DNA of 36,754 nucleotides from an uncultured Acidobacteriota bacterium (lineage in GTDB: Bacteria; Acidobacteriota; UBA6911; CAINFC01): the NCBI GenBank assembly GCA_903847975.1, contig CAINFC010000090.1, positions 1 through 36,754 of the forward strand, read 5' to 3'. Both the position numbers and the translations under genes were made by a program. The notes under the pieces were generated by a model. The model made no database searches. It worked only from the letters and a program-made list of their open reading frames with translations, and was not told the DNA's origin. This document shows, in pieces, positions 20,193-31,186 of the stretch (positions are counted from its first letter, which is position 1; every line of letters begins with the position of its first letter).

Positions 20193-21217
20193 TTGGAGGT
20201 GGCTTTCGTTGCCCGGAAAAACAGGGCGGTCATGTAATACAGCGTGCCGAGAGCCAGCACGAAGCACACCAGGAACAGGCCGAAGACGACCCATTGCGGG
20301 GAAACCGGGACCGAGTCGGGCCGGAAGTGCTTTTCCAGCAGTGCCAGCCGGACGAAGTGGCGCGTGGCCACCATTCCCAGCATGGATAGAAAGAGGAAAA
20401 GCCCGGCCCAAAGCGGGCTGCGGTTTCGGGAAAGGTGCATGGCGGCCAAAGCCAGAAGAACGGCCAGGGTGAGCGTCCATAGCGCCGGTCCGCCGCGGAC
20501 TGCCTGGAAAACGCCGGCGGGGACCAGCAAATAGGCGCATCCGAATACGATGGCCAGGATCATCCCGCCGAGGAAAAACCTGCGCCCGGCTTCCGAAGCT
20601 TTGGGATCCTTCTGCCCGGCCAGGCGGATGAAGAACCCTCCGATGGCGAGAATTCCCGAGATCATATGCATCCAGCGCAGCAGCCAGTGGGCATGGTCGG
20701 CGTGAAAGGCCAGCCCGGCCTGGTTCGCGGCGTACAGGGCCTTGGTGGTATCCGGCCTTTCCGCCAGCGAAAAGACCGAGCTGTACACCAGGGAAACATA
20801 GACCATTCCCAGCAGGGCGACGGCCAGGTATTTCCCGCACGGCGCCGCGGATTTGGAAAAGCCCGCGGCATAGAGGCAATAGTACGCCACGATAAGAGCG
20901 GCTATGATCAGCAGCCAGAACCAGCCGCTGACGATGGAGGCGGAGTAGATCGGCTGCGGGAAAACCAGCTGGACGAAAAGCAGCGGAGCGATGCCCAGGG
21001 TGATGGTGGCCGCCATGAGGGTGGGGAATGATTTTCGGATGAGAGGAACCACGGCCGAGTCCCAGCGGTCGGCGGCCCGGCCGAAAAAGAAAACCATCAC
21101 GCCGCCGAACAGCAGGCCCATGGCCGCCAGGTGCAGCGTCAGGGTGAGAATGTGCAGCGTGTCGATGAGCCACAGGGGCGCAGGAAGAAACTGGTAACTG
21201 GGCAGCACGGGATTCAT
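20189..21217 (-). CDS. Polytopic membrane protein, putative partner subunit of the bd-like cytochrome
   Basis: 342 residues; ATG 21217 has GGAGG seven bases upstream and overlaps the upstream gene's stop by 4 bp (ATGA). I count about eight hydrophobic helices. Histidines lie in the first helix (LHILTLTLHLAAM) and in HADHAHWLLRWMHMISG, placed where haem ligands would be possible. I do not recognise a named family. By position and size it may be the second subunit (CydB-like role) of the complex with the downstream-coded haem c fusion. No cytochrome c motif is present. Confidence is high that it is a real gene, moderate for the role. Confidence 0.7.
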   Translation of the reverse strand: MNPVLPSYQFLPAPLWLIDTLHILTLTLHLAAMGLLFGGVMVFFFGRAADRWDSAVVPLIRKSFPTLMAATITLGIAPLLFVQLVFPQPIYSASIVSGWFWLLIIAALIVAYYCLYAAGFSKSAAPCGKYLAVALLGMVYVSLVYSSVFSLAERPDTTKALYAANQAGLAFHADHAHWLLRWMHMISGILAIGGFFIRLAGQKDPKASEAGRRFFLGGMILAIVFGCAYLLVPAGVFQAVRGGPALWTLTLAVLLALAAMHLSRNRSPLWAGLFLFLSMLGMVATRHFVRLALLEKHFRPDSVPVSPQWVVFGLFLVCFVLALGTLYYMTALFFRATKATSK

Positions 21218-22722
21218 TTTGCACCTCCGGGTTTCTGGGAAAGCAGATACTGGATGAGAGCCTCTTTTTCGGCCGGGCTGCCGGAGAAGGCGGGCATCTC
21301 CTCGGCGATTTCACCACTGTTTTTCAGCAGGTCGTCATAGTCCTTTTCGGTAAGGCCGAGAATGCTTTCGGCCTTGTCGTTGAAGCCTCCGAATTCATGG
21401 CAGCGGCCGCAGCGGACTTCGTATACCTTGCGGCCCAGGGCGGTGCCTTCCAGGCGGTATATTTCCGCCAGGGGCCGCCGGTCGGTCCGGCGGTGAAGGA
21501 AATCGGCCAGGGCCCCGGCTTCGGCTGCCGTCCCGGGGAATGGCGGCATGTTCCCCTTGAGTTTGTGTATGCCGCGGATGGTTCCGGCAATGAAGGCCGG
21601 ATCGGTCCCGTCGAGAGCGGCAAGGAGCGGCCGGTAGCCCCGAAGGGTGTGGCAGCTGCGGCAGGTGTGGCGGAACAGGTCGGCGCCGTCGTCCCCCGTG
21701 CGGAAAGTCGTGTGGGCCAGAAGCCCGTCTTTCCGGTAGGCATCCATGCGGGAAACCTCCAGGCCGTTGGCGTACAGGTAGCCGGTGATGGCGAAGGGCT
21801 TGCGCACCGACTCCCGGAACCATTCGAAGGAAGCGAACCAGCCCAGGGCCGAAAGCATGATCAGCAGGGCAACCGACAGGTGCATCCGGCGCGGCAGCAG
21901 GCATCCGAAAACCAGCACCAGAAAGGCAAGAGCGGCCGCGAACAGCAGGGACCCGTGCACGCTCCACAGCGGATAAACCATAAAGGTGGCCGCCTGCAGG
22001 TTGGCTGCGGGAATGATGCGGAAGTACCAGAAAAAGCTGGGCAGGGTCACCAGCAATCCGCCGAGCGCCCAGAGCGCGTTGTAGCGCACCACGGAGGTTT
22101 TGAAACGGTCCGCCGGGAGGCGGGAGGCGACCAGCAGGGCATAGGTTCCGGCCAGCAGTACGCACACGCCGGTGCGCAATACCAGCGATGCCCAGTAGGT
22201 GGGGTTGAGGAAGCCGTCCCAGAAATCGCCGCTGGCCAGCCAATTCCCGGGAGTCAGCATGAAGGTCAGGATGCCGTTGATTACTGCCAGGGAAAGCCAG
22301 GCGGCGGCAAAGTAGATCCAGCCGATGCGCAGGTGGTCCCTTGCGGAAAGCCTCTCCCAGCCGTAAAAATAAACGATGGCGGCGGCGATTTCCACCAGGA
22401 AGAAGGTCCACTCAATGGCCCACCCCCAGACGAAATTGTGGATCAGGGCTTCGGTGGCCGTCGGGTTGAGCAATCCGATGATGAACCAGATGGCCACTCC
22501 GGTCAAAGCCCCGAAAACCACGGTGGTGAGCAGGAAGAATTTGGAAAGAGTCCGGAGGAAGGCCAGCCGTGCCTGGTCTTCGGCGCGCCGGGCAGCGGTC
22601 TCGGCGATTACCAGGTACAGGCCTCCTCCAATGGCGAAATGGGAGACAAAAACGTGGACGACGGCAATCAACCCCATCAGGGGGCCATACGGCAGCTGCG
22701 TGTCCCAGAATGGATAATTCAT
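21214..22722 (-). CDS. Cytochrome bd-like subunit I fused to two C-terminal haem c sites
   Basis: 502 residues from ATG 22722 (GGAG upstream). The first 330 or so residues are about nine membrane helices. His23 and His28 lie in helix 1 (AVVHVFVSHFAIG). WAIEWTFFLVE...YGWERL resembles the E. coli CydA segment holding Glu99 and Glu107; here the two are Glu104 and Glu111, spaced 7 instead of 8. FRESVRKPFAITG stands where CydA has GRQPW. The quinol-binding Q-loop is missing, and FVHTVSAG (His186 in CydA) appears as LVLRTGV. The C-terminal part has two c-type haem sites: C354-R-S-C357-H and C438-G-R-C441-H. Members of the bd superfamily with haem c domains have been described (OR-C group), thought to take electrons from c-type carriers. 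I infer an oxygen reductase-like or related enzyme. Confidence 0.82.
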   Translation of the reverse strand: MNYPFWDTQLPYGPLMGLIAVVHVFVSHFAIGGGLYLVIAETAARRAEDQARLAFLRTLSKFFLLTTVVFGALTGVAIWFIIGLLNPTATEALIHNFVWGWAIEWTFFLVEIAAAIVYFYGWERLSARDHLRIGWIYFAAAWLSLAVINGILTFMLTPGNWLASGDFWDGFLNPTYWASLVLRTGVCVLLAGTYALLVASRLPADRFKTSVVRYNALWALGGLLVTLPSFFWYFRIIPAANLQAATFMVYPLWSVHGSLLFAAALAFLVLVFGCLLPRRMHLSVALLIMLSALGWFASFEWFRESVRKPFAITGYLYANGLEVSRMDAYRKDGLLAHTTFRTGDDGADLFRHTCRSCHTLRGYRPLLAALDGTDPAFIAGTIRGIHKLKGNMPPFPGTAAEAGALADFLHRRTDRRPLAEIYRLEGTALGRKVYEVRCGRCHEFGGFNDKAESILGLTEKDYDDLLKNSGEIAEEMPAFSGSPAEKEALIQYLLSQKPGGAK

Positions 22723-22776
22723 TTCATAAACTCCATAAAAGCTTCCATGAATCAATGCGAAGGATAAGTCAGTAAG

Positions 22777-22805
22777 AGTATAAATTGCCCCCTGCCGACC
22801 GTCAA
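22777..22805 (-). promoter_or_regulatory. Sigma-70-like promoter of the bd-like cytochrome operon
   Basis: On the minus strand TTGACG (22800-22805), 17 bp, TATACT (22777-22782). It is among the best promoters in the window and directs 21214-22722 and the two coupled genes. The predicted start is near 22770. Confidence 0.7.
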
Positions 22806-22829
22806 TATTGATAGAACCGCATGACAAGT

Positions 22830-22958
22830 GCTTCCGCTTTTCTTCCCGCTCCTCCTTTCTTCCTGTCAGCCCGATTTTTTCACAGGAAGACCGGAAGATA
22901 AGGAAGGAAGGAAGAAACAATCACCCCAATTCGGATGGGGAGAGAGACTTTTTTTTTA
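22830..22958 (-). repeat. F1 palindromic repeat, copy 4 (inverted)
   Basis: On the minus strand: AAAAGTCTCTCTCCCCATCC, TTTCTTCCTTCCTTCC, loop GTGAAAAAATCGGGCTG, then ACAGGAAGAAAGGAGGAGC. It lies upstream of the cytochrome promoter and 68 bp past the stop of the spermidine-synthase-like gene. Nothing else is seen in 22806-23026. Confidence 0.75.
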
Positions 22959-23026: not shown

Positions 23027-25186
23027 TCAAATTCGGATCAACAGCGCGGCAAGCAGCGCCAGGGGCGCCATCCAGAGGCAGGTCTCCACCAGCCCGGCGG
23101 AGGGAATCAGCAACAGGGTGGCCGCCAGCGAGCCCAGGCAGCCGCCCGCCAGGTCGGAGGCGTAAAGTGCGGCAGCCGCCGAGCCGGGCCGTTTCTCCCG
23201 TGCTGCTGCGCTGGCATGGGACAGCGCAGCCGAGACCAGGTAGCCTGTCAGCCCGAGCAGGACCACCACCGGAGCCAGCCCCTGAACGGTCCCTTCATTC
23301 ATGACTAGGGCCAGCAGCAGGCTCAGGGCGGCGAAACACAGGCACAGAAGCAGGCCGTACCATCCGGACAAAAGAAACGATCGGCGCCCGTCCTGCGGCA
23401 TTCTGCGCAAGGCGCCGAGGCATAATCCGGCCAGAAAGCCGGTCAGCAGAAGGCCGATATCCTGATACAGAATGCCGGCTTTGACCTGGTAATACAGAAC
23501 CAGCGCGCTTTCCAGCACCATGCCCATAAAGGCGGCCGATCCCGCCAGCAGGCAACGCGGCAGCCGCCGGAACCGGCGGGCTGTCAGGAAAGCAGTTCCC
23601 AGAACGGCGGCTGCTATCCACATCCGCCAGTCGCCTTGTCCGCCGGAGGGCGGGAAGGAGGGGAAGTCCGCGGTGGAAACTTCAGGGAAAAACCGGGACA
23701 GCCAGAGGAGCATGGTGTATCGGTAGCAGGCCGGCCGGATGTCGGTGTTGACCGGCGCCGGCCGGGCTTCGAGCCGCTGCCGGATTTCCCGGTAACGGTC
23801 ATTTTCATAAAGGTAGCGAAGAAAAGGCGGAGAGACCAGGCGGGTCTGTATGGCCCGGCTCTCCAGCCGGGAGGCGAGAAGAGCGGGGTCCCGGGGGAGC
23901 GGAGCGCCGGAAGCAGCAAACAGGTTCGCGGCACCGGGCAGGACTTGAACTTCGGGCAGTACTTCCCGCAGCGCACGGAAAATGCCGGCCGCCCGCAGGG
24001 TTTCCGGGTCGGTCCAGTAGTTTTCCGCGGTCCGCAACCGAAAGGCCAGAATGCCCGCGGGGCGCAGGCGGTCGGCGCAAAGCTGAAAAAAATCCCGGGT
24101 GTAAAAGCGGTTGGCCTGGCCGGAGGAGGGCTCCGGCATGCCGATCAGGATCAGGTCAAAGCGGTCCGCCAGGCGCAGAAACCGGCGGGGATCCCCGATA
24201 TGGGTGCGGACCGTTTCGTCCCGGAGTGCCTGCTGTTTTTCGGCCGGCAGCCAGAGGGCCGCCGCGTCCAGCAGATCCCGGTTCAGCTCGACGTAATCCA
24301 CGCGGGCCGGGGAATGCTTGCGCATTTCCTCCACCAGTCCGGCCCAGCCTCCTCCGAGGATCAGGACCCGCTCCGGGTGCGGATGCAGCAGCGCCGCCGG
24401 GTGCACAAATTCCTCCGCTTCGGTGCCCTCGGTCTCATGGCAGAGCTGATCGTTTTCGAACAGGGCCACCTGACCTCCGCGCCGGGTCAGGGTGATTCGG
24501 CTGTAAGGCGTGTCCATGCTGGCCAGCAGATCGGGATGATTGAAGCGGGTCAGGAAAAGGTCGAGCCGGCCCGAATAGAGCACGCCCGGAAGAAGCGGGA
24601 CGGCCGTCAACAGAGCGGCAATGCGGAACCGGCGGCTCCCGCCCTCACGGCCGGCCCAGGCGGCGCCCAGGGCGGCCAGGGAGCAGAGCAACAGGATGCT
24701 CAGGTTCCGCAGTCCGAACTGAAGAAAGAGAGTGGCGGCAATACCGCCGATCAGGCCCCCCAGGCTCTCCCAGGCGTAGGCCCGGGGAAAGGACCCGCCC
24801 CGGCGGATCCAAAGCCCGCAGGCCTCGCGAAACAGGGAGCCGGACAGGATTCCGACCGGCAGCAGGGACAGGGACAGGAGGCTTACCTGATGGCCGAAAG
24901 GCAGGAAAGCGCCGCGCGCCTCGGTAAAAAGAGTGCGTATCAGGCGGATGAAGACCGCATCCAGCGGCAGGAAGAAGGCGAAGAGGAGAAACAGGAGCCG
25001 GATGCGGGATCGGTTCGCCGCGGTCTCTTTGGGTCCAAGGAGCACGCCGGCCGCGGTCCAGACGAGCCAGACGCCTAGCCCCAGGATATAAATGAGCTCG
25101 GTTCCGTAAAAAGCGACATTCAGCTCGCGCAGCAGGACCGCCTGCCCAAGAAGGGTAACCAGGCCGACCGCCAGCAGGTCCGTCAT
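23027..25186 (-). CDS. Polytopic membrane protein with spermidine-synthase-like domain
   Basis: 719 residues; ATG 25186 overlaps the upstream stop as ATGA. About eight N-terminal helices (1-245), a soluble Rossmann domain (about 255-520) and five or six C-terminal helices (about 545-719). The central domain has VLILGGGWAG (near 275), VDYVELNRDLL and HIGDPRRFL, the order seen in aminopropyltransferases. The catalytic DSxDP of true spermidine synthases appears as GMPEPSSGQANRFYT, so the catalytic Asp is not obvious. Proteins annotated 'fused MFS/spermidine synthase' have this layout; their reaction is unknown. Coupling to the AmmeMemoRadiSam lipoprotein suggests a shared function. A SAM or decarboxylated-SAM ligand is an inference from the fold. 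Confidence 0.85.
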   Translation of the reverse strand: MTDLLAVGLVTLLGQAVLLRELNVAFYGTELIYILGLGVWLVWTAAGVLLGPKETAANRSRIRLLFLLFAFFLPLDAVFIRLIRTLFTEARGAFLPFGHQVSLLSLSLLPVGILSGSLFREACGLWIRRGGSFPRAYAWESLGGLIGGIAATLFLQFGLRNLSILLLCSLAALGAAWAGREGGSRRFRIAALLTAVPLLPGVLYSGRLDLFLTRFNHPDLLASMDTPYSRITLTRRGGQVALFENDQLCHETEGTEAEEFVHPAALLHPHPERVLILGGGWAGLVEEMRKHSPARVDYVELNRDLLDAAALWLPAEKQQALRDETVRTHIGDPRRFLRLADRFDLILIGMPEPSSGQANRFYTRDFFQLCADRLRPAGILAFRLRTAENYWTDPETLRAAGIFRALREVLPEVQVLPGAANLFAASGAPLPRDPALLASRLESRAIQTRLVSPPFLRYLYENDRYREIRQRLEARPAPVNTDIRPACYRYTMLLWLSRFFPEVSTADFPSFPPSGGQGDWRMWIAAAVLGTAFLTARRFRRLPRCLLAGSAAFMGMVLESALVLYYQVKAGILYQDIGLLLTGFLAGLCLGALRRMPQDGRRSFLLSGWYGLLLCLCFAALSLLLALVMNEGTVQGLAPVVVLLGLTGYLVSAALSHASAAAREKRPGSAAAALYASDLAGGCLGSLAATLLLIPSAGLVETCLWMAPLALLAALLIRI

Positions 25187-26739
25187 GGCTTGCGGCCGGA
25201 ACGGGCTTCGCCGAAAACCTCCGCCTGGAACACCTGGAACCGGGCGCCGCTCCTCCAGGCATCGCGCGGCAGGCCGGCTTTGAGGGACAGGTTGTCGAGC
25301 AGCTCGGTCAGGCCCCATCCCTGTTCCGTGGCCACCTGGGGAAGGAAAACGGCGGAGCGCCCGGCCTTGCGGAGCACCACACCGTCTTTTCCGACCACAA
25401 TTTCGGAGGCGCGCGCGATCGGCTGCATGGGGGTCATCGCGGAAATTTCGATTTCCAGGCTGTCCAGCTCCTGCAGGGTGACCGGTGCAAACCGGCTGTC
25501 GGCGGTTCCGGCCTGCACGGCCATCCAGCTGACAGCCAGGGCCAGGGGAAAGTCTCCTCCCAGCCGGCCGATGCAGCCGCGCAGCCTCCCCTTCTGGTGA
25601 AGGGTCACGAAGGCTCCCTGGGGAACCTTCAGCCGGTCGCTCAGGTCGCGTGCCAGCGGAACCGTGTCCGTGGAAAGGAAGCGTTGCAGGCTTTTGCGCG
25701 CCAGCCTAAGAAGCGCTTCCTTGTCGCCTGCGGTCAGAGGCCCCGGAGCGCCCGAAACTTTCCGCGCCTGCCGGAGGCCGTTGCCGGCCGGGGTCCCGCC
25801 GCGCAGAAATACGGCGGAGCCGTAGCCGACCACCCGGGATCGGTCTTCCGCCACAATATCTCCGCTGTTGGCGTAGCTGACCGCGGCGGCCCGTTCGGCT
25901 CCCATGGCCCGGGCGGCTGCCATAGCGGCCAGGATGGGCCCCTCGCCGCAGGTGCAGGTGTCGATGCCGGGCGTGCCGCGGGACATCCGCGAGCGGATCT
26001 GCAGGAGGAAGCGGTCGGGGCTCAGCGGAACGATGGAATCCAGCAGGTCCAAATCGGCCGCTGCGGCGTCCTCATATCTTGGAAAATGGGAGAGGTCGGC
26101 GCTGGCTACCAGCAGGACGCTCCTGCCACGCGAAATCCTGGCGATGGCTTTTCCCAGGCGCTCGCACAGGGCGGGATCCGGCCGTCCGATCATCAGCGGC
26201 AGAATCCGGGCCTGCGGAAAGAGCACCTGGATGAAGGGGACCTGGACCTCGATGGAGTGCTCCGCGGCCTGGGCTTCAGGCTGGGAAGAGCAGTCGGAAT
26301 CGGCTGCCATCAGTTCCCTGGCCAGCGCGGCATCGACCGGGGCCTCGCCGAGAGGCGTCCGGTAGGCGCCGCCGGCATACACCGAAACGCCCGTCAATCG
26401 GGCGCCGGCCATGTTCCGCCCGTGATTGGTGCCCAGGATCATCACCGTGTCCACCGCCTGGCTCTTTACCTGGCTGTAGGCGTCGGCAATGAGCGGTCCG
26501 GCGTAGAGGTAGCCGGCGTGGGGCGCCAGAATAGCCACCGGCTGGCCGCCCAGGGCAGGGCGCGCTTCTTCCATGAATTTCTCAATCGCCAGGCGGAGGC
26601 GCGCCGGATCGGAGGGATAGAACTGTCCGGCGAAGGCCGCCTGGCGCACTCCCGAGCCGGGCGGCTCCCCCCATTTTCCGGTGAAGCTGCAGGAAAGCAG
26701 GAGCGGCAGCCAAAGCAATGGGAACGAATGAAATTTCAT
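25183..26739 (-). CDS. Lipoprotein Memo-AMMECR1 fusion (AmmeMemoRadiSam system)
   Basis: 518 residues; ATG 26739 has GGAGAG upstream. The N-terminus is a lipoprotein signal (PLLWLPLLLSC, lipobox Cys17), so the protein should be exported and membrane anchored. Memo domain (about 30-310): APHAGYLYAGP, GTNHGRN, EHSIEVQVPF, ASADLSHF and TCTCGEGP, which contain the conserved His and Cys positions of Memo proteins. AMMECR1 domain (about 335-510): GAFVTLHQKGRLRGCIG, DSRFAPVTLQELDSLEIEIS. The two families and a radical SAM enzyme recur together in many prokaryotes (AmmeMemoRadiSam) with no agreed function. Here the radical SAM gene lies 58 bp upstream and the spermidine-synthase-like gene overlaps downstream. 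What is unusual is the lipobox. Confidence 0.9.
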   Translation of the reverse strand: MKFHSFPLLWLPLLLSCSFTGKWGEPPGSGVRQAAFAGQFYPSDPARLRLAIEKFMEEARPALGGQPVAILAPHAGYLYAGPLIADAYSQVKSQAVDTVMILGTNHGRNMAGARLTGVSVYAGGAYRTPLGEAPVDAALARELMAADSDCSSQPEAQAAEHSIEVQVPFIQVLFPQARILPLMIGRPDPALCERLGKAIARISRGRSVLLVASADLSHFPRYEDAAAADLDLLDSIVPLSPDRFLLQIRSRMSRGTPGIDTCTCGEGPILAAMAAARAMGAERAAAVSYANSGDIVAEDRSRVVGYGSAVFLRGGTPAGNGLRQARKVSGAPGPLTAGDKEALLRLARKSLQRFLSTDTVPLARDLSDRLKVPQGAFVTLHQKGRLRGCIGRLGGDFPLALAVSWMAVQAGTADSRFAPVTLQELDSLEIEISAMTPMQPIARASEIVVGKDGVVLRKAGRSAVFLPQVATEQGWGLTELLDNLSLKAGLPRDAWRSGARFQVFQAEVFGEARSGRKP

Positions 26740-26797
26740 GAGAATCTCTCCAGGCGGCAGTCTGCGATAAAAATCGGCGGCGGCATCGTCTCCTTCC

Positions 26798-28030
26798 TCA
26801 GGACCACACGCCGGCGATTTTCCGGCGGCAGAAGGGGCAGCTGCCGTCCCGGATATTCCTTTCCAGGAGGAAGAAGCCTTTGCGCCGGATCAGCGCTTTG
26901 CCGCAGCCGGGGCAGTAGGTGTCGTCGCCGGGATGCCCGGGAACGTTTCCGACGTAAGGATAGCGGATTCCTTTGCGCAGCGCCAGTTCCCGGGCTCGCT
27001 CCAGGGTCTGGACGGGAGTGGGGGGCAGGTTCAGCAGCTGGTAGTCCGGGTGGAAGGCGGTGAAGTGAACGGGGACATCCGGGCCCAGATCCCCGGCCAC
27101 CCAGTCGACCAGCGACCGAAGCATGCGGTCGGAATCGTTCAGCGTGGGGACCACCAGGTTGACCAGTTCCAGATGAATGCCGCTCCGGGCCACCTGGCGT
27201 ATGCTGCGCAGCACCGGGGCCAGCTCGGCGCTGCATACGCTGCGGTAGAAAGACTCGTCGAATCCCTTAAGGTCGATCTTGATGGCGTCCAGCACGGAGC
27301 ACATCTCCGCCAGGGGCTCGGGATTCATGAATCCGCAGCTGATCATGACGCAGCGCCTTTTCTGCAGCCGGGCGGCCCGGGCGATGTCGGTCAGGTATTC
27401 GGTGAAAACCGTGGGCTCGTTGTAGGTGAAGGCGATCACCGGGACCGAGCGGCTGCAGACCGTTTCCACGATTTCCGCCGGGGGAATGCGGCGGGTGGAG
27501 TAGTCTTCCGGGCGGGCCTGGGACAACTGCCAGTTCTGGCAGAATTTGCAGCGCAAGGGGCACCCCGAGGTGGACATGCTGAAAGCTTCCGACCCGGGCA
27601 GAAAATGGTAGAACGGTTTCTTTTCGATCGGATCGACATGGGTCGCCATGGGGCGGCCGTATACCAGGCTGCGCAGCTCCCCGCCGACGTTCAGGCGCGC
27701 CCGGCACCGCCCGCGTTCGCCGCCGGGGATCAGGCAGTTTTGGGCGCAAAGCAGGCAGCGCACAGCCTGCTTGCCTTTTTTGTCATGGTGGCGGAGGTCG
27801 GCAAGATTGTCCCTGGACGTGTGGCAGGCCAGGCAGTCGGTCCCTGGAGAAGTGCTGGAGATCCAGTAGCGGGCTTTGGGCGACAGGCGGATCAGTTCCT
27901 CGGTTGAATCCGCTGCGGCGCCGCTGCCGAAATTGGGAAGCAGCCCGAAGGGCGCGGCTTCACTCCGGCCGGCGGAGCAAACAGGCACCAACCCGGCAGC
28001 GGCGGAAAGCCATCGGCGGCGGGAAATCAT
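26798..28030 (-). CDS. Tat-signal radical SAM protein (AmmeMemoRadiSam system)
   Basis: 410 residues; ATG 28030 follows GGGAGGG. The start reads MISRRRWLSAAAGLVP, a Tat-like signal, ending near SEAAP. Then comes an extension holding C66-L-A-C69-H70, a haem c-type CxxCH. The conserved part starts with Cys92, Cys95, Cys99 and Cys109 (CLLCAQNC, GERGRCRAR), then HVDPIEKKPFYHFLPG, then the radical SAM cluster Cys157, Cys161 and Cys164 (SGCPLRCKFC). Family-typical FTYNEPTVFTEY, KIDLKGF and a C-terminal CPGC...CPFC zinc-ribbon-like pair follow. It is the PflA-like member of AmmeMemoRadiSam. If exported by Tat, the enzyme would be folded with its cluster before transport. The source of SAM and electrons outside the cytoplasm is not evident. 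Confidence 0.9.
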   Translation of the reverse strand: MISRRRWLSAAAGLVPVCSAGRSEAAPFGLLPNFGSGAAADSTEELIRLSPKARYWISSTSPGTDCLACHTSRDNLADLRHHDKKGKQAVRCLLCAQNCLIPGGERGRCRARLNVGGELRSLVYGRPMATHVDPIEKKPFYHFLPGSEAFSMSTSGCPLRCKFCQNWQLSQARPEDYSTRRIPPAEIVETVCSRSVPVIAFTYNEPTVFTEYLTDIARAARLQKRRCVMISCGFMNPEPLAEMCSVLDAIKIDLKGFDESFYRSVCSAELAPVLRSIRQVARSGIHLELVNLVVPTLNDSDRMLRSLVDWVAGDLGPDVPVHFTAFHPDYQLLNLPPTPVQTLERARELALRKGIRYPYVGNVPGHPGDDTYCPGCGKALIRRKGFFLLERNIRDGSCPFCRRKIAGVWS

Positions 28031-28608: not shown

Positions 28609-28740
28609 GTAAAAAGTATCTCTTCCCATCCGCAATGCCCTGATTGCTTATTTCTTTCTTCCTGATCTTCCCCTCTTCCTGTGAAAAGAAAAGGCTTACG
28701 GGAAGCAAGGAAGAGCGGGAAGAAAGGCGGAAGGGCAAAC
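28609..28740 (+). repeat. F1 palindromic repeat, copy 5
   Basis: GGTAAAAAGTATCTCTTCCC and TTTCTTTCTTCCTGATCTTC, loop GTGAAAAGAAAAGGCTT, then ACGGGAAGCAAGGAAGAGC. It matches copy 4 in its first 45 bases as well, including the CCCATCCG segment. It lies in the 1.07-kb gene-free stretch 28031-29104, which is a cluster of F2, F1 and F4 elements. Confidence 0.75.
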
Positions 28741-29104: not shown

Positions 29105-31186
29105 ATGATTCGGTCTGTTCTTTATGCTCTGACTGCTGCCTGCCTGGTCCAGTTTTTCCTGGCGATGATCGCTCCGCCGCCGGCCGCCGCCGTTCCCAGC
29201 CGTGGGCTCACTCCATCCGGGCAGACGCTCCCGATTACCATGCCTGTTTTTTCCATTCAGCCTTATAGTCTCGATTCGAGCGTCCTGCTGAGCAACCTGA
29301 GCAAATTTAACCAACTGTATATCACTTCGATGGCTTCGGTGATCACGGTGACGACGCCCGGCGGGGTGACCAGCCTGGCTTCCACAAACAGCTATTCCGG
29401 GAACCTGGCGCAGCAGTTTGCCGGCACAGGCGGACTTTTTGTTCTCAATCTCCCTCAGGCTTTCAATGAAACTCCTTCCGCATTTATCACCATTACGGCC
29501 TCCGGGGTGTGCAATTTCCTGAAGTCGCGCAATCTCTTCCCCAGCGAAGTTCCCTACCCGTACCAATCCTGCAGCAGCCCCACTCTGGCATATAATACAC
29601 GTTCCATTTACAAAGCCAGCAGCCTCACGCAGGGAAAGACGGAAATCGGTAAGCTGATCCAGATTCCCATGCAGATTCCTGTGCACAACTTCGCCCAAGG
29701 GATTACCGCTACAATCTCGGTCCCGCTGGGCGGGCCGGGCGGCCATCTGTCGCTGCTGTTGTCCGGGAGCTCCGGATCCCTGGATTCCAGCCTGCCGGGC
29801 CTGCAGGCCTTCGCCTCTCCCTGGTTCGGACGGCAGCTCAACAGCACACCGATCGGCTATTATACGGTGGTCCCGCAGGGCACGGCCATGGAGCGGTTCA
29901 TGATGCAGTTCCCGCAGGAATGGCAGGTGAGTCCCGGGACGCCGGAGCTTACCTATTACGCGGGATTTCCGGACAGCCCGCAAAGCGTCCTGGTTCCTTA
30001 TTGGATGTTTCCGGATGCCACCGCGTTCGTGTCCGGTACCACTGTAACCTTGCGGTCCTCGTTTCTTCCAGCCGTGGAAAATTTTGTCCCGTCCGTCCAG
30101 ATTGCCTCCCCGGCGCAAGGACTGGTGCCCTGGCCCGGCCAGTCCGTCCCCGTTTCGTTTACCATTACCGGGGCGCATGGCCCCTTCTCCTATAACGTTT
30201 ATCTCGACGATTCCGTGGTTATTACCGGGACGACGTCAAGCGGGTCTCCTGCCGGGGGAAGCTTCCCGATGCCGCCTTCCGGTGAGCGGCCGGAAGGGCG
30301 GGTCTTGCGGGTGGAAGCCAGAAACAGCTACGGCCAAGCCGGCAGCGGCGTGGTGTACCTGGGCGCACCGCAGGCCCTCTACCTGCCGATGGTGACAAAA
30401 GGGGGGACCGCCGCCGCCCGGGAGGCTTCGGAGTTCTTGCCCGCTCCAAGTCAAGCCCGGACTCCTTCGGGGACTTATACGCGGGTCGGAGTGGAATGGG
30501 TATCCAATTACCACGGCACGGCGCCCAACCTGGCCATGACCGGGCCCGATGCGGAAGGGCTTTACCACTGGCTGGGTTCTTCCGGCATCGGCTGGACCAA
30601 GGCGTTCAACTACGGCAACGATTCGGCGTGGGAAAAGGACTGGCGGGACTGCACCCTGGGCGGAATCGACTGCGGCATGGGCGTGGACCGGGCGGAGCTG
30701 GTCTATTTCGCGGGTCATGGCTCCCCGTCGCGCTGGTATTTCGGGGTGAGCCGGAACGCCCGGGCGGCTTCGGCTGCCCATGCCCGCTTTCAGAACATCC
30801 GCTGGTCGGGTTTTGCCTCCTGCCAGACGCTGCGCGGAGGGCCGTTCGTAGGGGTCGGGAATCCTCCCTTGACCGAGTGGTTCAACTCCTTCCAGGGTTC
30901 CAACATGGTCCTCGGGTTCCACAGCGGCATGATGGACGTGGCCTTCGGGCCGATCCTGGGATTCTACCTGCGCAATTCCATTTATGACTTTGCTCCGGCC
31001 CTGCAGCCTTCGATCCGGAGCGCCTGGCTGATCACCGCATTTTTCATGAACGCCGGAAGGCCCTCTTACCTTTACGCCATAGGCAACCGCAACCCGATGG
31101 ACGACAAGCTGCCGGCATCCACTTCCGCTCCTTTGGCGGCACTCACCGGGATTACGGAATACCGCTGGGTCTGGTGGGAAGAGTGA
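29105..31186 (+). CDS. Secreted protein with C-terminal caspase-like His/Cys domain (DUF6345-like)
   Basis: 693 residues; ATG 29105 follows GAGGAG. A signal peptide (SVLYALTAACLVQFFLAMIA, ending AAA near residue 29) leads to an unrecognised beta-rich region (30-320), then an Ig-like segment (about 335-420: VQIASPAQG...VSFTITGAHGPFSYNVYLDD) ending in ALYLPMVTKGG. The C-terminal domain (about 455-693) begins VGVEWVSNYHG and holds LVYFAGHGSP with His538 and SGFASCQTLRGG with Cys573. A His-Gly followed by a hydrophobic strand ending Ser-Cys is the arrangement of clan CD (caspase/gingipain) peptidases. I recall DUF6345 proteins as having these motifs. Peptidase activity is an inference. It heads a run with a Wzy-like protein 39 bp downstream. 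Confidence 0.75.
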   Translation: MIRSVLYALTAACLVQFFLAMIAPPPAAAVPSRGLTPSGQTLPITMPVFSIQPYSLDSSVLLSNLSKFNQLYITSMASVITVTTPGGVTSLASTNSYSGNLAQQFAGTGGLFVLNLPQAFNETPSAFITITASGVCNFLKSRNLFPSEVPYPYQSCSSPTLAYNTRSIYKASSLTQGKTEIGKLIQIPMQIPVHNFAQGITATISVPLGGPGGHLSLLLSGSSGSLDSSLPGLQAFASPWFGRQLNSTPIGYYTVVPQGTAMERFMMQFPQEWQVSPGTPELTYYAGFPDSPQSVLVPYWMFPDATAFVSGTTVTLRSSFLPAVENFVPSVQIASPAQGLVPWPGQSVPVSFTITGAHGPFSYNVYLDDSVVITGTTSSGSPAGGSFPMPPSGERPEGRVLRVEARNSYGQAGSGVVYLGAPQALYLPMVTKGGTAAAREASEFLPAPSQARTPSGTYTRVGVEWVSNYHGTAPNLAMTGPDAEGLYHWLGSSGIGWTKAFNYGNDSAWEKDWRDCTLGGIDCGMGVDRAELVYFAGHGSPSRWYFGVSRNARAASAAHARFQNIRWSGFASCQTLRGGPFVGVGNPPLTEWFNSFQGSNMVLGFHSGMMDVAFGPILGFYLRNSIYDFAPALQPSIRSAWLITAFFMNAGRPSYLYAIGNRNPMDDKLPASTSAPLAALTGITEYRWVWWEE

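Follow-up and report, generated by a model that had tools for sequence, protein, structure and literature searches.

A stretch of 36,754 nucleotides from an uncultured Acidobacteriota bacterium (GenBank assembly GCA_903847975.1, contig CAINFC010000090.1, positions 1 to 36,754; hereafter the window) carries on its reverse strand a three-gene cassette that probably encodes an extracytoplasmic AmmeMemoRadiSam module. The products are a radical S-adenosylmethionine (SAM) protein (rSAM), a Memo-AMMECR1 fusion protein, and a membrane protein with 14 transmembrane segments (14-TM protein). AmmeMemoRadiSam is a set of three families (TIGR04337, TIGR04336, and TIGR04335) of unexplained function; human MEMO1 and AMMECR1 are among their relatives. 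Radical SAM enzymes are viewed as strictly intracellular, since the cytoplasm is where SAM and low-potential electrons are available. Both core proteins of the window are predicted to be exported, as a first reading of the letters alone (the sequence-only reading) had claimed, and their signals are conserved across phyla. The wider comparison adds a conserved and widespread branch of the family that is predicted to be exported, a subgroup with a putative heme c site, and a near-obligate third partner.

The rSAM (26798..28030, 410 amino acids) is of the AmmeMemoSam_rS type, scoring 352 bits against TIGR04337 (curated NCBIfam cut-off 220), and appears to be an exported, heme-type variant. Its N-terminus is MISRRRWLSAAAGLVPVCSAG. 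The TIGR04337 model first aligns at residue 81, so residues 1-80 are outside the family core. They begin with a twin-arginine signal region (residues 1-25, 27956..28030) in which the arginine pair at positions 4-5 precedes an uncharged hydrophobic stretch, the rule-based pattern of the twin-arginine translocation (Tat) pathway. The sequence-only reading had called this signal Tat-like, and the pair is kept in all 19 heme-type proteins (the window protein plus 18 homologues, drawn from public genomes and a set of 396 genomes belonging to the same phylum as the window). Between signal and core is CLACH (residues 66-70, 27821..27835), a CxxCH heme c attachment motif outside the TIGR04337 model that the sequence-only reading did not mention; it is invariant in 19/19 and not present in the non-heme-type family members read. 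A histidine lies 9-14 residues past CxxCH in each of the 19 proteins and is a candidate distal heme ligand (His81-His82 in the window, 27785..27790). In an alignment of eight heme-type sequences, invariance ahead of the core is confined to R4 and R5; P51, A53, and R54; and C66, C69, and H70. Identity between the window rSAM and its four nearest relatives is 36-54% in the pre-core segment and 69-80% in the core. Twenty-six rows of the rSAM tree described below were read as cytosolic, without an N-terminus of the RR/CxxCH type. The extension is not chance, because RR, P-x-A-R, and C-x-x-C-H are the sole invariant residues before the core, RR is universal in the heme-type set, and the cytosolic rows lack it.

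Homologues that lack the extension and share a conserved internal start would point to a cytoplasmic enzyme; every heme-type homologue has the extension with its invariant CxxCH. Tat-like signals can stay as uncleaved anchors, but it is very unlikely that these enzymes are cytoplasmic and that their N-terminal extensions only anchor them in the membrane or stem from wrongly called starts: the RR and CxxCH residues ahead of the core show conservation at the protein level, the partner appears to be exported too, and the positive-inside rule puts the domain of the 14-TM protein outside. Judged from the homologues, the predicted twin-arginine and lipoprotein signals are genuine. The sequences strongly support a route in which the rSAM would leave via Tat after folding in the cytoplasm and acquiring its iron-sulfur cluster(s) there, and Tat export of the folded holoenzyme is very probable. 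TatC (PF00902) and cytochrome c assembly protein (PF01578) were found in 17/17 heme-type genomes; both are common, so their presence is a consistency check only.

Tat-exported cofactor proteins and c-type cytochromes have in common with the window rSAM an RR signal, a folded cofactor protein, and CxxCH. The motif is on an exported-type protein of an organism predicted to make heme c, as expected of a c-type cytochrome. Outside the membrane, the cytochrome c maturation machinery would join heme to CxxCH, with the later histidine as probable second ligand; covalent heme at this site is likely. The heme would sit immediately ahead of the N-terminal four-cysteine site of the core, and electrons from periplasmic c-type carriers could reach the radical SAM cluster through it. 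That the heme is the electron inlet to the rSAM cluster(s) has about an even chance of being correct. The sequence-only reading had proposed an outside electron carrier, and the CxxCH is the most direct hint of one. Alternatively, CxxCH and the later histidine may form a structural zinc or iron-sulfur site in an enzyme exported without heme. The CxxC-H...H arrangement is compatible with a Cys2His2 zinc site, and the single CxxCH is in a short insert (~25 residues) that is moderately ordered in the structural model. This alternative seems rather unlikely, given that the histidine right after CxxC is invariant whereas spacing to the next histidine varies, that the protein appears to be exported, and that the genomes make c-type cytochromes.

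The catalytic core of the rSAM is intact. The radical SAM CxxxCxxC motif (C157, C161, and C164; 27539..27562) is invariant in 96/96 family members, as is an N-terminal four-cysteine site (C92, C95, C99, and C109; 27704..27757), possibly an auxiliary cluster or zinc site. A C-terminal four-cysteine site (C373, C376, C398, and C401; 26828..26914) is kept in 95-96/96, and D253 and K255, identified by alignment to pyruvate formate-lyase (PFL) activating enzyme, in 96/96. The near invariance of these residues indicates that exported rSAMs are not degenerate. With CxxxCxxC and the SAM-binding positions in place, the window protein belongs by sequence to the radical SAM superfamily, whose defining activity is reductive SAM cleavage. 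AlphaFold2 modeled residues 41-410 with a predicted local distance difference test score (pLDDT) of 95. The nearest solved fold and sequence is PFL activating enzyme (PDB 3cb8 and 3c8f), which shares CxxxCxxC and the DxK position; the window rSAM differs in having two additional four-cysteine sites, a signal peptide, and a heme motif. Comparison of neighbors across loci found no glycyl radical enzyme among the conserved neighbors of the cassette, and the NCBIfam activase models score far under cut-off, so identity as a glycyl radical enzyme activase was rejected.

The Memo-AMMECR1 fusion (25183..26739, 518 amino acids) scores 232.3 bits against TIGR04336 and 158.9 bits against TIGR04335 (cut-offs 26 and 99). 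It contains a Memo domain (25810..26640; PF01875, 190 bits) and an AMMECR1 domain (25213..25710; PF01871, 164 bits). Its N-terminus, MKFHSFPLLWLPLLLSC, contains a lipoprotein-type signal peptide (residues 1-16, 26692..26739) with an LLSC lipobox and Cys17 at position +1. Manual reading found a hydrophobic, signal-like N-terminus on all 18 heme-type partner proteins seen, but a clear lipobox in only some (LLSC in the window, LLAC in L146/L147, LPGC in L152, and ISSC/AGGC in L150); many have signals resembling those of signal peptidase I instead. Partner export is thus conserved and lipidation is not. The lipobox noted in the sequence-only reading is present in the window, as claimed, and the partner of an RR-bearing rSAM is not always a lipoprotein, as that reading had suggested it might be.

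Human MEMO1 (3BCZ and 7KQ8) and AMMECR1-family structures (1VAJ, 1ZQ7, and 1WSC) contain the same domains, which in the window are fused and predicted to be exported. The iron/copper ligands of human MEMO1 are H49, H81, and C244 (PMC11081632). H74, H106, and C264 of the window fusion were read as their counterparts and are conserved in 47/47 fusions, as is the cysteine of the AMMECR1 RGCIG motif (Cys389 in the window). The partner, which keeps the metal ligands and the AMMECR1 cysteine, would be exported by the Sec pathway, anchored or free in the envelope, and may act as substrate or co-catalyst of the rSAM; it is the obvious substrate candidate. In the exported branch, adjacent Memo and AMMECR1 are almost always fused, mostly with a signal of their own. 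In one locus (L045:4564-6868), Memo, AMMECR1, and rSAM share a single uninterrupted reading frame, headed by an N-terminal signal, and may be a natural three-part fusion.

The third gene (23027..25186, 719 amino acids, PF01564) encodes the 14-TM protein. Its start, at 25186, overlaps the stop codon of the fusion gene by 4 nt (ATGA), and its end is just beyond the region covered by the sequence-only reading (25183-28030). AlphaFold2 predicts seven TM segments, a central domain (residues 220-475, 23762..24529), and seven more TM segments (pLDDT 89.6). The best PDB match to the domain by Foldseek is 1UIR, a spermidine synthase fold, and lysine plus arginine counts in the loops (positive-inside) place the domain in the periplasm in 34/34 homologues. 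Spermidine synthase/polyamine aminopropyltransferase (1UIR and 3ANX) and the central domain have the fold and adenosyl-binding acids in common, and E300 and D332 are retained in 32/34 and 33/34 homologues. In contrast to those enzymes, the domain is set in a 14-TM protein, faces the periplasm by prediction, and has GMPEP in place of the catalytic DxTDP (DLTDP), the first Asp being replaced in homologues. Spermidine synthase activity is unlikely because the catalytic Asp pair is missing.

The sequence-only reading had also connected a downstream SAM-fold membrane protein to the system, and the comparison bears this out. The 14-TM gene adjoins the rSAM and fusion genes in 16/17 heme-type loci with a long enough contig; in the one remaining locus (L157), the gene is found at another place in the same genome (G079:C43). 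No fourth conserved neighbor gene was found across the heme-type loci compared. Where a locus extends 2.5 kb or more to both sides, the 14-TM gene is next to the rSAM in 28/45 cases of the exported branch, in varied orientations, versus 0/18 cytosolic cases. Full-length 14-TM protein (at least 264 bits, well separated from the next scores, at 177 bits and below) is present in 88/93 of the genomes that have an exported-type rSAM and in 12/303 of the rest. These counts ignore shared ancestry, and exported-type rSAM here means a profile score of at least 395 bits, with manual checks limited to the 30 top-scoring cases. A high-scoring 14-TM protein was also observed in a genome in which no exported-type rSAM was found (G025 C388:252-2387); this gene is close to the contig start, so the rest of the set may be missing from the assembly.

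By turning an adenosyl-binding domain of spermidine synthase type to the periplasm, the 14-TM protein could supply SAM or clear spent SAM products, a role we propose only tentatively. The chance is somewhat greater, although short of even, that it is unrelated to SAM supply and either transports something else or modifies a compound of the envelope on which the Memo-AMMECR1/rSAM pair acts as well. Proteins matching only the N-terminal half plus the SpeE domain occur in many genomes without an exported rSAM (scores of 177 bits or less), and full-type homologues also adjoin signal-less rSAMs (L023, L061, and L040). However, the full-length type closely tracks exported-type rSAM, and the acids for adenosyl binding are kept whereas those for aminopropyl transfer are lost.

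Phylogenetic analysis of 96 rSAM cores (quick IQ-TREE search) placed the 18 heme-type rows in one clade (SH-like approximate likelihood ratio test support 100), nested in a 71-row branch (support 92) in which nearly all members have Tat or Sec signals. The branch includes Planctomycetota, Omnitrophota, Elusimicrobiota, KSB1, Calditrichota, Zixibacteria, Krumholzibacteriota, Aminicenantes, and others, and the genomes compared are largely metagenome-assembled. Loci from the window's phylum resemble those of Aminicenantes, consistent with its assignment to Acidobacteriota. Plain cytosolic rSAMs are outside the exported branch, save one Woesearchaeota row. The genome of the window also holds a cytosolic set, with an rSAM (C252:88650) and separate genes for Memo (C252:210306) and AMMECR1 (C257:11514). 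A third Memo gene was observed in this genome (G000 C252:271624-272508; L003, L164), in a 474-amino-acid frame with a long N-terminal extension.

Several points weigh against this extracytoplasmic model. Export of the two proteins is not strictly joint: six Nitrospirota loci (L060, L061, L063, L044, L053, and L023) have a signal-less rSAM next to an exported fusion, and two Myxococcota (L056 and L066) do likewise. These signal-less rSAMs begin directly at the first cysteine motif, and since they are beside an exported partner, the rSAM seems to act inside, at least in those relatives; the loci are a natural contrast for the site of the reaction. SAM is not known in any periplasm, to our knowledge. 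The model gives the heme segment of the rSAM no more than moderate confidence (pLDDT ~70), and CxxCH plus histidine could bind zinc. Signals were called by rules and manual reading, and some calls were revised on reading (L107 to no signal; L029, L036, L048, L051, L136, L146, and the L150 partner to signal). On the tree, the association of export with 14-TM adjacency reduces to 1-3 independent contrasts and a sign test is not significant, so the locus test alone is weak and no independent evolutionary replication is claimed.

The signal-less loci also bear on whether the reaction precedes export. If both proteins are exported, the rSAM might act a single time in the cytoplasm, its target being either the partner chain or the rSAM itself, and the mature complex would need no SAM once outside. 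Enzymes resembling PFL activating enzyme can act once per target, and the Nitrospirota loci and the lack of known SAM outside the membrane fit this order of events. We nevertheless consider it improbable. By rule-based reading the rSAM takes the Tat route and the partner mostly Sec, which would keep their folded forms from meeting in the cytoplasm; a heme c would have its site of use only outside; and exported-type genomes retain a periplasm-facing protein of adenosyl-binding type. The fullest version of the extracytoplasmic reading, in which all of the radical SAM chemistry takes place outside the membrane, with a Tat-exported rSAM, its own covalent heme c inlet, and SAM from a dedicated membrane protein with a periplasmic SAM-binding domain, is itself doubtful. 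If it were true, radical SAM chemistry could run in the cell envelope, implying SAM export; the alternative outcome is that the enzyme is exported to do something that requires no SAM. Both outcomes would provide a testable setting for the unexplained AmmeMemoRadiSam families, with two parallel versions in a single genome, one inside and one outside.

Like known AmmeMemoRadiSam systems, the window has all three families above cut-off with core motifs intact. It differs in that the set is predicted to be exported, Memo and AMMECR1 are fused, a CxxCH segment precedes the rSAM core, a 14-TM partner is nearly constant, and a separate cytosolic set is present in the same genome. A 2019 survey of the PCAD-Memo superfamily by Burroughs et al. 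in the Journal of Biological Chemistry (JBC) is reportedly the most relevant earlier survey. Our literature search found no exported, periplasmic, or heme c radical SAM enzyme of this kind, the 2019 Memo survey (JBC) being outside its reach, and nothing relevant on membrane spermidine synthases. By title or abstract, it found no study of the AmmeMemoRadiSam system itself; a 2019 survey of Memo-AMMECR1-rSAM systems is cited in PMC7159879.

Other genes flank the cassette. On its 3' side is a reverse-strand gene (21214-22920) whose product is a membrane protein resembling cytochrome bd subunit I and bearing cytochrome c (CBB3) domains at its C-terminus. It was weighed as a possible electron donor, but since its adjacency to the cassette is not conserved, it was rejected as a constant component of the system. 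Upstream, on the forward strand, is a gene for a DUF6345 protein with a signal-like N-terminal stretch (29105-31186). The cassette is bracketed by inverted copies of a 123-nt repeat (22831-22953 and 28611-28733, 81% identity). At least 40 copies of this repeat, with 80-91% identity, are present in the genome of the window; it is a dispersed element of unassigned family.

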